A DNA stretch of 64,000 nucleotides from Bacillus sp. NEB1478 (GTDB lineage: Bacteria > Bacillota > Bacilli > Bacillales > Fictibacillaceae). Below the pieces are notes generated by a model. The model made no database searches, had not been told where the DNA came from, and worked only from the letters and a program-made list of their open reading frames with translations. Positions 724 through 25,803 of this stretch are shown here, in pieces. Location of the stretch: the NCBI RefSeq assembly GCF_031582965.1, contig NZ_CP134049.1:1984001-2048000 (forward strand). The letters are read 5' to 3'. Position 1 is the first letter of the stretch. Every line of letters starts with the position of its first letter. A program made the translations under genes and the position numbers.

Positions 724-798
724 TGGCGCGCCCACCAGGATTCGAACCCAGAATACGAGAGCCGAAATCTCGTGTGATATCCATTTCACTATAGGCGC
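724..798 (-). tRNA. tRNA-Arg (anticodon TCG)
   Basis: A full cloverleaf can be folded: acceptor stem GCGCCTA pairs with TGGGCGC (one T-G pair), discriminator G, and an encoded CCA at 724-726. The anticodon stem is CGAGA/TCTCG around the loop TTTCGGC, which puts TCG at positions 34-36 and so reads CGA arginine codons. The T-loop TTCGAAT is standard. A matching promoter lies just upstream. Position 34 is a U in the RNA, which is relevant because the next gene downstream modifies U34 in tRNAs. Confidence 0.93.
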
Positions 799-2995: not shown

Positions 2996-4450
2996 ATGAA
3001 ACAAATTAATCAAATACGTACTAATGAATTGACACTAGATGAGTTAATTCTCCACTTTGAAAACGGTGAATTATCTTCTGTTGGACTCGTGAAAAACTAT
3101 TTAGAACGCATAGCAGCCTTTGATAAAGCTGGCCCTTGTATTAATTCTGTACTGGAAGTAAACCCCGAAGCCTTATTTATTGCAAAAAAGATGGATCATG
3201 AACGCTCAAATGGTAAAATCAGAGGTCCATTGCATGGGGTGCCTGTGATTATTAAAGACAATATTGATTCAGCAGACCAAATGCACACAAGTGCAGGATC
3301 ATTAGTCCTGGAAAATCACTACGCAGAAAAAGATGCATGGATTGTAAAAAAACTGAGAGATGCCGGTGCTGTAATACTTGGAAAGGCAAATATGACGGAA
3401 TGGGCTAACTTTATGGCTTATGACATGCCTAATGGTTATAGCTCGAGAGGCGGTCAGGTACTTAATCCTTATGGTCCAGGAGTTCATGATGTAAGTGGTT
3501 CCAGTTCAGGTTCTGCAGCTTCTGTTGCATGTAACTTCACTATGCTGGCAGTAGGTACCGAAACTGCCGGATCTATACTTTGTCCAGCAGGAAACAACAA
3601 TATTGTAGGAATAAAACCGACTGTAGGTCTTGTATCAAGAACAGGAATCATCCCGATTTCCATCAGTCAAGATACGGCGGGGCCAATGGCGAGAAACGTG
3701 AAGGATGCAGCAAAATTGTTAGAGGTACTTGCAGGTTATGATGAAGATGACTCAGCCACGCATTCTGCAACTTTTTTTGATTCTTATACTGATGGATTAG
3801 AAAAAGCCACATTAAAAAGAAAAAGATTGGGTGTTACTTATAATTTCTGTATAAGAAATCTTACTGATACTCAAAAGACTGTTTTTGATGAATCGCTTTC
3901 TCTCTTAAAAAAAGAAGGAGCAGAAATTATATATTTAGAAAAAATATCTCCATTGGAAAATGAAAATTTTAATTATAAAGTTTTGCTTCACGAATTCAAG
4001 TCAGGTATTAATAATTATTTGAAGACCGTTTCTTCTGCTTTAAGGATAAGTACTTTATCAGACATTATCGAATATAATAAACAAAATAAAGAAGCTTGTC
4101 TTGTACATAATCAGGAATTGTTGGAAGAAAGTAATCAAACGGATGGCACATTAACGAGTCCAGATTATTTAAATGCACGATTAAACGATTTGAAGTATTC
4201 ACAAGTAGATGGAATTGATCAAGTAATGAAAGAACACCAGCTGGATGCATTGATCAGTCCGAATGATGTTTGGTATGGAATCCCTGCAAAAGCAGGTTAT
4301 CCTTCTATATCAGTGCCATCAGGATTTGATGATAATGGTTTGCCATTAAGTATCGTCTTAACAGCCGGTGCATTTTCAGAGAAAATACTTATTGAAATCG
4401 CATATGCATATGAACAAGTTACACAATATCGAGTTCCTATTGAATATTGA
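2996..4450 (+). CDS. amidase signature family protein
   Basis: A 484-residue cytoplasmic hydrolase of the amidase signature family, which cleaves amide bonds with a Ser-cisSer-Lys triad. The Lys is K87 in VPVIIKDNI. The Gly/Ser-rich core GSSSGSAAS spans residues 168-176, with a Ser near 169 as the cis-Ser. The nucleophile is S193 in GTETAGSI. Length fits stand-alone amidases and not GatA, because no gatB or gatC is nearby. The substrate cannot be read from sequence. The start has GAGG about ten bases upstream. The gene is monocistronic; its 3' region carries the 21-bp array A and then a terminator. Confidence 0.85.
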   Translation: MKQINQIRTNELTLDELILHFENGELSSVGLVKNYLERIAAFDKAGPCINSVLEVNPEALFIAKKMDHERSNGKIRGPLHGVPVIIKDNIDSADQMHTSAGSLVLENHYAEKDAWIVKKLRDAGAVILGKANMTEWANFMAYDMPNGYSSRGGQVLNPYGPGVHDVSGSSSGSAASVACNFTMLAVGTETAGSILCPAGNNNIVGIKPTVGLVSRTGIIPISISQDTAGPMARNVKDAAKLLEVLAGYDEDDSATHSATFFDSYTDGLEKATLKRKRLGVTYNFCIRNLTDTQKTVFDESLSLLKKEGAEIIYLEKISPLENENFNYKVLLHEFKSGINNYLKTVSSALRISTLSDIIEYNKQNKEACLVHNQELLEESNQTDGTLTSPDYLNARLNDLKYSQVDGIDQVMKEHQLDALISPNDVWYGIPAKAGYPSISVPSGFDDNGLPLSIVLTAGAFSEKILIEIAYAYEQVTQYRVPIEY

Positions 4451-4513
4451 TTAAAAAATGAGTACCAATACGATGATTTAACGTTGTTTGGATCTCTTTT
4501 TTTCAATTTCTTG

Positions 4514-4618
4514 TTTATGTGGAATGTATAAACGTTTATGTGCGAAAGTGAAGGATTTATGTGGGCTAAACTTAATTTATGTACGATAACAAGCGTTTTA
4601 TGTGGATTCCCGTTTTTA
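4514..4618 (+). repeat. array A: degenerate tandem units, period about 21 bp, core TTTATGTG
   Basis: The word TTTATGT begins at 4514, 4535, 4556, 4576 and 4597, so spacings are 21, 21, 20 and 21 bp, and a weaker TTTATC follows. Only the first 7-9 bases of each unit are conserved; the remaining 12-14 differ. It sits in the gap between two convergent genes, upstream of their shared terminator. Confidence 0.8.
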
Positions 4619-4637
4619 TCACTAAAAACTCCCATTT

Positions 4638-4674
4638 AAAAAAGGGTCTGTCTCCATGACAGACCCTTTTTTTA
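4638..4674. terminator. bidirectional intrinsic terminator
   Basis: Perfect stem AAAAGGGTCTGTC/GACAGACCCTTTT with loop TCCAT, A-run on one side and T-run on the other. It serves the amidase and threonine aldolase genes. Confidence 0.92.
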
Positions 4675-5691
4675 TACAATTTTGTTGATGATTTCAATTG
4701 CTTCCTCAATATCTTTTGAATTTACATCATAATGAGTAGTGAATCGAATCTTCCCTTCTCCAAAAGAGACAGCGAGTACACCCCTATTTTTTAGCTGTTC
4801 TAAAAATTCTTCATTTGATTTATGGGTTTTTTCAATGTTTACTATTACAATGTTCGTTTCCGGTTTATTTAATACCGAAATGCCTTCAATGTTCTCTAGA
4901 GCATCTGCTAACCTTCTAGCTTTCCCGTGATCTTCATGCAGTCTCTCAACCATTTCTGTTAAAGAGATAATGCCGCTAGCACCTAAAATGCCAGCTTGTC
5001 TTAGTCCGCCTCCCAGGCGTTTTCTCCATTTTCTAGCTTTTTGAATCATTTGTTTGTTTCCAGCCAAAATAGAACCAACAGGTGAACCTAGCCCTTTTGA
5101 TAAACATATTTGAACACTGTCACAATACTTTGTGAAATCCGCTGCTCTTTTATGAGAAGCAACAACTGCGTTGAATAGTCGTGCTCCATCAATATGTACA
5201 GGAATAGAAGCAGATTGAGCTATATCGTAGATAGATTTCATGTTTTCAATCGATACTATAGAACCGCCAGAACGATTATGCGTGTTTTCTATACAAATGA
5301 GCGAAGTATCAGGAAAATGAATATCTTGTGATCGAATAGCATTTTTAACATCCATTGGATTCATCTCCCCTTTTTGCCCCTTAATTACACGGGGCTGAAC
5401 ACCAGCTAAAGCGGATATTGCTGCACCTTCATAGAAAAAGATGTGAGATTCTGACTCTACAATGATCTCATCGCCGGGTGAACAGTTTGCTAAAACGGCT
5501 AACTGGTTTCCTTGAGTACCACTTGTAACAAATAAAGCATCCTCTTTACCCAGCATTTCTGCTGCAAGCTCTTCTAAACGATTAATAGTTGGATCCTCGC
5601 CGTAAACATCATCACCGACCGTAGCTTCAAAAATGGCTTTGCGCATTTTTTCTGTAGGCTTAGTAACTGTGTCACTTCTTAAATCAATCAT
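4672..5691 (-). CDS. ltaE: low-specificity L-threonine aldolase
   Basis: A 339-residue PLP enzyme that splits L-threonine or allo-threonine to glycine and acetaldehyde. The N-terminus IDLRSDTVTKPT is the family hallmark. GDDVYGEDPT, FVTSGTQGNQLA and the HIDGARLFNA Asp follow, and the Schiff-base Lys lies in CLSKGLGSPVGS near residue 200. Length matches the family. AGGTGG stands four bases before the ATG. The start overlaps the stop of the upstream methyltransferase gene by four bases, which indicates translational coupling. Confidence 0.92.
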   Translation of the reverse strand: MIDLRSDTVTKPTEKMRKAIFEATVGDDVYGEDPTINRLEELAAEMLGKEDALFVTSGTQGNQLAVLANCSPGDEIIVESESHIFFYEGAAISALAGVQPRVIKGQKGEMNPMDVKNAIRSQDIHFPDTSLICIENTHNRSGGSIVSIENMKSIYDIAQSASIPVHIDGARLFNAVVASHKRAADFTKYCDSVQICLSKGLGSPVGSILAGNKQMIQKARKWRKRLGGGLRQAGILGASGIISLTEMVERLHEDHGKARRLADALENIEGISVLNKPETNIVIVNIEKTHKSNEEFLEQLKNRGVLAVSFGEGKIRFTTHYDVNSKDIEEAIEIINKIV

Positions 5692-21243: not shown

Positions 21244-21300
21244 ATGCTCGGAGGAAGTTATAGGAGTAGGTCGTTTTAATGTCGGATTTTGACGACCCGT

Positions 21301-21376
21301 CGATATATGAATGAAAAGTTTCGATATATGATTCATAAATCTCGATAATTTACTAAAAACCTGAATATATGAACGG
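21301..21376 (+). repeat. array B: degenerate tandem units, period about 21 bp, core CGATATATGA
   Basis: CGATATATGA starts at 21301 and 21322, CGATAATT at 21343, and GAATATATGAAC carries the same ATATATGA at 21365. The first three units are exactly 21 bp apart and the fourth 20 bp. An isolated TATATGAACAGG occurs further on at 21436. The array lies between the terminators of two convergent genes, in an otherwise empty 400-bp gap (21181-21582). Confidence 0.7.
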
Positions 21377-21520
21377 AAAATGTGGAATTAATGGTTGCAG
21401 GAATTGGCAGCATGTTCGTTTAACCAAATGATGTCTATATGAACAGGACATTTTGGAGAATTGTTCAATCCAGATGGAATCATGCATAATGATGAATTAG
21501 ACAAGAATATTTTTTACGAT

Positions 21521-25611: not shown

Positions 25612-25797
25612 AAGTTAAGTAAGATCCGCTCTGCCGTGACTTTATATGCCTTTGGAACCTGATCTCTCAGGTGGGTACCCGCAGCTGTCGTTACAGTCTT
25701 CCAAGTCGGATGCAAGGCTTGACTGCCTGACAGATCATATTGGATTCCCGTCGTTAGCACATAGGTTAAAGACATTGGAAAGCCACGAACATCGCAG
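25612..25797 (-). ncRNA. 6S RNA-like small RNA
   Basis: About 185 nt between a strong promoter and a strong terminator, with no open frame carrying a ribosome site. The ends pair as in 6S RNA: ATCTGC with GCGGAT and GTGGCTTT with AAAGTCAC, leaving a large internal bulge. Near the 3' side is a short hairpin CCTGAGAGATCAGG. 6S RNAs mimic an open promoter and bind the sigma-A RNA polymerase holoenzyme. The location beside ypcP matches my memory of one of the two 6S genes in B. subtilis (bsrB). Identity rests on fold and context, not on alignment. Confidence 0.7.
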
Positions 25798-25803
25798 ATT
25801 TTT

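Follow-up and report, generated by a model that had tools for sequence, protein, structure and literature searches.

Repeat arrays in the amidase-aldolase gap and elsewhere in the window

The window analysed here is a stretch of 64,000 nucleotides, positions 1984001-2048000 of the single 3.93-Mb contig of Bacillus sp. NEB1478. Two of its genes, which from their translations we take to be amidase-like (2996-4450) and threonine-aldolase-like (4672-5691), converge on a gap that holds a row of short direct repeats and a hairpin.

2996..4450, + strand: amidase-like gene, 484 aa, upstream of array A (ORF; homologs, synteny)
4514..4618, + strand: array A, five direct units with the core TTTATGT(G) and a free remainder
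4638..4672, unstranded: hairpin between the convergent genes (fold with a 15-bp stem, a 5-nt loop, and A/T-rich stem ends)
4672..5691, - strand: threonine-aldolase-like gene, 339 aa, convergent (ORF)

Array A lies between the stop of the amidase-like gene (4450) and the hairpin. TTTATGT occurs at 4514, 4535, 4556, 4576, and 4597, exactly where a preliminary description of this DNA had placed it, with steps of 21, 21, 20, and 21 bp. As that description had also held, conservation is confined to the start of each unit: all five copies agree in columns 1-7, four of them have G in column 8, and the remainder is variable. The longest 7-mer chain at 20-22 bp has five members in the window vs two in each of 100 shuffled windows, and shuffling the gap itself (4451-4671) 2000 times gave longest chains of 1 or 2. 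An ordinary tandem repeat or microsatellite was rejected, since only 7 of 21 columns are invariant and 4514-4618 is absent from the Tandem Repeats Finder list (score 30), which includes part of the second row described below (21300-21347, period 21). A coding role was rejected because the 20- and 21-bp steps shift the frame; a 112-aa minus-strand ORF across array A is taken to be spurious. The hairpin is probably the shared terminator of both genes, a role to which its fold points, although a consensus terminator scan of 4300-4800 returned 0 terminator-like sites and the hairpin was absent from the output.

A second row of the same kind, built on a different word, is preceded by a distinct module:

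21280..21299, + strand: head module of array B, with TGTCG-like boxes at 10-bp spacing (TGTCGGATTTTGACGACCCG)
21300..21382, + strand: array B, with units at 21300, 21321, 21342, and 21362 and the core TCGATATATGA

At the gathering threshold, Rfam gave no match over array A or array B. Elsewhere in the window it placed 6S RNA at 25619-25803 (- strand; RF00013, 73.4 bits) and a tRNA gene at 727-798 (- strand; RF00005).

Abundance, pitch, and unit structure of the arrays

Intergenic recurrence of 7-mers was counted in a sample of 864 kb from the same genome, consisting of the window and 40 further stretches; a mechanical ORF rule classed 115 kb of it as intergenic. In this part, repeats of an identical 7-mer at a distance of 21 bp number 304 vs 17.8 in shuffled sequence, and those at 20 bp number 92 vs 18.1. 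Echo peaks appear at 41/42 and 62/63 bp (161 vs 14.1 at 42 bp and 81 vs 11.6 at 63 bp). Strong clusters, defined by five or more matches, number 29 vs 0.5 in shuffles, with no comparable excess for periods of 15-17, 26-28, or 30-32 bp; at least one of the 29 (L047:2560) is a simple TTG run and thus no member. Their density of 34 per Mb extrapolates to approximately 130 arrays in the whole genome. Among clusters with three or more matches, 33 of 36 have 3-6 units, and each array has a word private to it (CGTGGATATAT, CGTTGGATTAT, CGCGAGATTAT, AGACTTAAT, and others). The preliminary description had named many arrays, each homogeneous in its core word, as what would support its idea, and had staked the idea on an excess of this spacing over shuffled intergenic DNA; both are borne out by these counts.

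The word of array A itself is found in ten pairs at 20-22 bp, spread over seven places in the genome (one pair in the reversed control). Of the six places outside the window, four (L001, L002, L009, and L010) are part of longer rows, at L003 a tail-like end comes after two units, and L004 is coding sequence in appearance (by eye). The fuller unit of the TTTATGT rows is like TTTATGTGGATTCA plus seven free bases.

The mean step of the arrays is 20.8 bp, or two turns of 10.4 bp, from 1 step of 19, 16 of 20, 52 of 21, and 3 of 22 bp (one step of 18 and one of 24 were excluded from the mean), which fits the one-face-of-the-helix spacing suggested earlier for array A. The A/T power of the strong clusters is 5.97 at 10.4 bp vs 1.15 in shuffles, the strongest of six periods tested and above the 2.82 at 20.8 bp; since the clusters were selected for a 20-22-bp repeat, this rhythm may in part be a harmonic of that selection. 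In array A taken by itself the effect is small (2.76 vs 1.2 at 10.5 bp). The companion suggestion of a phased-bend element gains some support: the rhythm is there in the strong clusters, but it is partly open to the harmonic and slight in array A. Unit consensus sequences were obtained from tail-anchored elements (T, 145 units: ttTGaGcGaAAa.......tt) and head-anchored elements (H, 140 units: AcTCGTGGGATTAt....aat), with unit registers picked by matching neighbouring units; flanking controls were nearly flat for both.

Head and tail modules

Many arrays are bounded by one of two end modules, the elements being roughly 100-190 bp long (by eye). The head module reads TGTCG N5 TGTCG NN TCG and is followed by about five units; the tail module reads ACGTGT N13 ACACGTACCG and is preceded by about five (unit numbers by eye). 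The own-genome sample contains 23 non-coding sites with two TGTCG-like boxes at 10 bp, 15 of which head an array (by eye). Among 17 whole genomes the head module is present in 8, all of this genus, with 16 copies in this genome. Its reversed control gave 0 everywhere except 1+1 in G017, a genome without the head. The exact tail is present in 7 of the 17, again all of this genus, at 4 to 50 copies each (controls 0), and is found neither in this genome nor in G017. This genome has instead a degenerate tail: five copies, mismatched at no more than three positions, all of which follow units like those of array A (by eye); at array A itself a tail module is not recognisable. Over 299 genomes of the order, covering 116 genera, a tail variant pattern was found in nine, all belonging to this genus. 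Short inverted repeats (GGGTAT ... ATACCC) flank head elements in some relatives (L206, L214, L216, L222, and L228; by eye).

The boxes of the head module were compared with TGTCGAA, which we take to be the Spo0A (0A) box. The head boxes stand in tandem at 10 bp, with hardly any conservation in the bases that follow the first of them, TGTCG having been preset in the search pattern. TGTCGAA/TGACGA boxes at 10-bp spacing were also seen at L030:1467 and 1700, the second upstream of an AbrB-like gene; the boxes at L030:1700 are presumably Spo0A sites, both names being our own assignment.

Taxonomic range and turnover

An excess at 20-22 bp is present in seven of eight sampled members of the genus, this genome included, the exception being G017 (7 vs 3.2, no strong cluster). 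Within the same family, the counts are 50 vs 5.9 in G019 (two strong clusters), 13 vs 2.7 in G023 (one), and 4 vs 1.5 in G021 (none). Genomes of three other families gave 9 vs 8.8, 9 vs 3.0, and 2 vs 3.9, with no strong cluster. A scan of public genomes for pairs of the word CGTGGAWWTAT returned seven stretches: two belong to Fictibacillus, which is therefore probably the genus concerned here, one belongs to Mesobacillus, and the other four to unrelated metagenome genomes. A viral origin was considered and rejected, as one tail pattern had no match in viral_contigs and neither of the two matches to one head pattern was followed by an array (by eye). Literature searches returned no title describing such arrays among the matches listed, which does not in itself show that they are absent from print.

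Arrays come and go at single loci. No TTTATGT array was seen by eye in the orthologous amidase-aldolase gap of 17 genus relatives, so a fixed place of array A at the amidase locus is not supported; in G005 the same gap has a short row of a different word. At trpS a cluster is present in 6 of 18 species by the mechanical rule, and by eye in G014 too, with differing words and end modules; the rpsD locus has a cluster in 3 of 18 species. One further gap contains tail elements with differing words in three species (L241, L259, and L260). At trmU a 20-bp cluster stands behind a hairpin in 16 of 18 species, with at least four units in ten of them and up to approximately 21 (G016). Near-perfect 20-bp tandem rows of the TTTATGAGCGATTCCAGAGA type lie behind the hairpin in the trmU gap of L188 (G016) and also of L191 and L187, and their unit resembles that of array A (by eye). 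In one relative (L193) the trmU cluster contains a run of N.

Sequence constraint was estimated from six comparisons of orthologous arrays, using core columns defined leave-one-out. Differing positions amount to 41/306 in core, 43/261 in intermediate, and 19/63 in free columns (core vs free, p 0.002), two of the six comparisons sharing L156 and 20-bp steps blurring the register in some arrays. An earlier count of 5/191 in core vs 94/538 in spacer defined the core by a single member of the compared pair and was thus biased towards the core, for which reason the leave-one-out values are preferred. Core conservation is modest under this unbiased definition.

Position and orientation of the arrays

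Of the 64 convergent gaps of at least 100 bp, 13 contain a strong cluster, vs 13 of the 236 codirectional and 2 of the 92 divergent gaps of that size, and many arrays stand beyond a terminator-like hairpin (by eye). In G005 and G015, 49 of 59 tail elements point along replication, with the origin set at the contig start, a placement supported by the GC skew of sampled stretches. Since genes there have a similar strand bias, this orientation may follow from that of the genes. In this genome, head elements are without such a bias (6 of 16 along replication, counted by eye). Tail elements of G005 look sparse near the replication terminus (by eye).

Interpretation

With a probability of about one half, array A belongs to a family of dispersed repeats, confined to this genus, whose body serves as a docking strip, on one face of the DNA, for a putative oligomeric DNA-binding protein. 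The body of an element consists of about five direct, degenerate units at the mean pitch of 20.8 bp, many bodies having a head or tail module. Its units would be sites for an oligomerising, DNA-bending or DNA-wrapping protein that may form a strip close to the downstream ends of genes, and copying would be the way in which the elements spread. A row of one-face sites for such an oligomer would agree with the pitch and the 10.4-bp A/T rhythm, with spacers that are free, with RNA structure that is weak, and with the location of the arrays near gene ends. A single sequence-specific protein would be awkward, since words differ greatly between arrays; a candidate binder is a histone-like ring such as RemA. 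RemA-like proteins gave two matches in each of the 17 genomes, with or without arrays, and their gene number is uninformative for this reason.

The distribution of the elements can be accommodated equally well by a BOX-type interspersed repeat, and an element may be both a docking strip and such a repeat. The main rival, a parasitic MITE- or BOX-like element without host function, whose repeats serve its own copying and which collects in convergent gaps because insertion does least harm there, is possible though tentative. Copies at unrelated loci in G005 (L172, L088, and L090) have common spacers (by eye), a sign of dispersal; exact tail copies range from 0 to 50 among genus members; presence differs between species at one locus; and both the convergent enrichment with divergent depletion and the 49 of 59 tail elements running with the replication fork would suit it. 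BOX, RUP, and SPRITE, dispersed intergenic repeats of Streptococcus, are likewise described as over-represented between convergent genes and as 61-63% leading-strand in the cited part of their account (PMC3049150). Against this, the arrays are not known to have target-site duplications, paired ends, or a partner transposase, and conserved cores at helical pitch between free spacers require an extra reason. Some of the G005 copies, moreover, lie within a larger repeat that may have carried them (by eye). By eye, tail elements at L172, L233, and L090 lie within or next to a larger GC-rich repeat, which is found in several gaps and is a possible carrier.

Two other explanations are improbable. 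Structured or repeat-bearing RNA in 3' regions would suit the many arrays that come after a gene and the place of array A between a stop codon and a hairpin. However, RNA folding is little better than in shuffles (mean z -0.79 for 28 head elements and -0.74 for 29 tail elements), many arrays lie beyond a terminator-like hairpin (by eye), arrays A and B are without an Rfam match at the gathering threshold, and the helical pitch is left without a reason. Decaying minisatellites, in which a 20-21-bp unit was tandemly duplicated and then drifted neutrally, have similarly small odds. The long trmU clusters and the identical adjacent units of one own-genome array (L033) speak for them, but neutral decay would blur all columns equally, while here cores persist and spacers are free, and in many elements the units number about five and the end modules are fixed (by eye).

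The ends of Tn7 start with TGT, as does the head module. An origin of the arrays as Tn7-, Mu-, or IS21-like transposon ends with several direct transposase sites is nevertheless the least probable reading. Several direct repeats at one end are a feature of such elements (PMC10122671, in the part cited), but a single end only is seen (by eye), and a transposase of this type was rejected on the Mu-transpos_C domain, which is present in 2 of 17 genomes (G015 and G037) and missing in the other 15, including this one (0 matches) and the tail-rich G005, G007, G009, and G014.

Returning to the docking strip, a bolder and unlikely extension is that each chromosome of this genus has many strips of constant pitch, in this species possibly numbering a hundred or more, at which a ring- or filament-forming protein would wrap the DNA at gene ends as a form of sequence-marked chromatin, with words that would be replaced between species one array at a time. 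The copies of an interspersed repeat usually share their sequence; in these arrays helical pitch and architecture are constant and the word changes with each array. If protein-bound, the arrays would make helically phased binding at gene ends directly testable across a whole genome and would show how words within one array change together. If parasitic, they would be a family diverse enough in sequence for a standard repeat finder to overlook, as Tandem Repeats Finder overlooked array A and caught array B in part.

Comparison with known systems

Plasmid iterons and ParR/parC sites are direct repeats of approximately 20-22 bp on one helix face. They are replication or partition sites in low number, whereas the arrays occur in tens of chromosomal copies with differing words. 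Some array words resemble what we take to be the DnaA box and others do not.

The classical LytTR consensus showed no excess in the arrays. LytTR boxes are described as direct repeats of 9 bp, usually separated by 12 bp and less often by 11 or 13 (PMC6193735), and the array steps, mostly 20-21 bp with a mean of 20.8, agree with this 21-bp period (9 + 12). The part of that source cited here describes the boxes as pairs just upstream of promoters, unlike the arrays, and LytTR boxes were rejected by word, as 26 own arrays score -3.91 vs -2.01 column-shuffled. The corresponding scores are -4.46 vs -4.20 for T and -5.26 vs -4.03 for H; array A scores -0.37, a value reached by 57 of 500 shuffles. 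LytTR genes number 1-2 per genus member vs 2-4 in five genomes of other families.

The ends of Mu-, Tn7-, and IS21-like transposons, as far as the cited part of their account goes, have several direct protein sites in a row (PMC10122671), as the arrays do; the arrays differ in that no second end was seen and that Mu-transpos_C is absent in 15 of 17 genomes.

RemA of Bacillus subtilis is a ring-shaped oligomer described as binding AT-rich, modestly conserved 7-bp direct repeats with 3-bp spacing over regulatory regions of 107-159 bp (PMC8481266, in the part cited). The arrays have a comparable A/T rhythm near 10 bp (5.97 vs 1.15, partly a selection harmonic). They differ in their stronger cores and 21-bp word period; RemA sites are reported upstream of promoters (PMC8481266), whereas arrays are rare in divergent gaps.

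In layout the arrays resemble BOX, a short dispersed intergenic element described as modular, with an internal module of variable copy number (PMC3049150, in the part cited). The arrays are likewise dispersed and intergenic, with end modules and an enrichment in convergent gaps. BOX, RUP, and SPRITE are predicted to form RNA stem-loops (PMC3049150), whereas the arrays fold weakly, and the internal unit of the arrays is approximately 21 bp, helically phased, and degenerate, with a word that differs between arrays. Although the folding speaks against a BOX-like RNA stem-loop, the arrays fit the general kind of the modular interspersed repeat.
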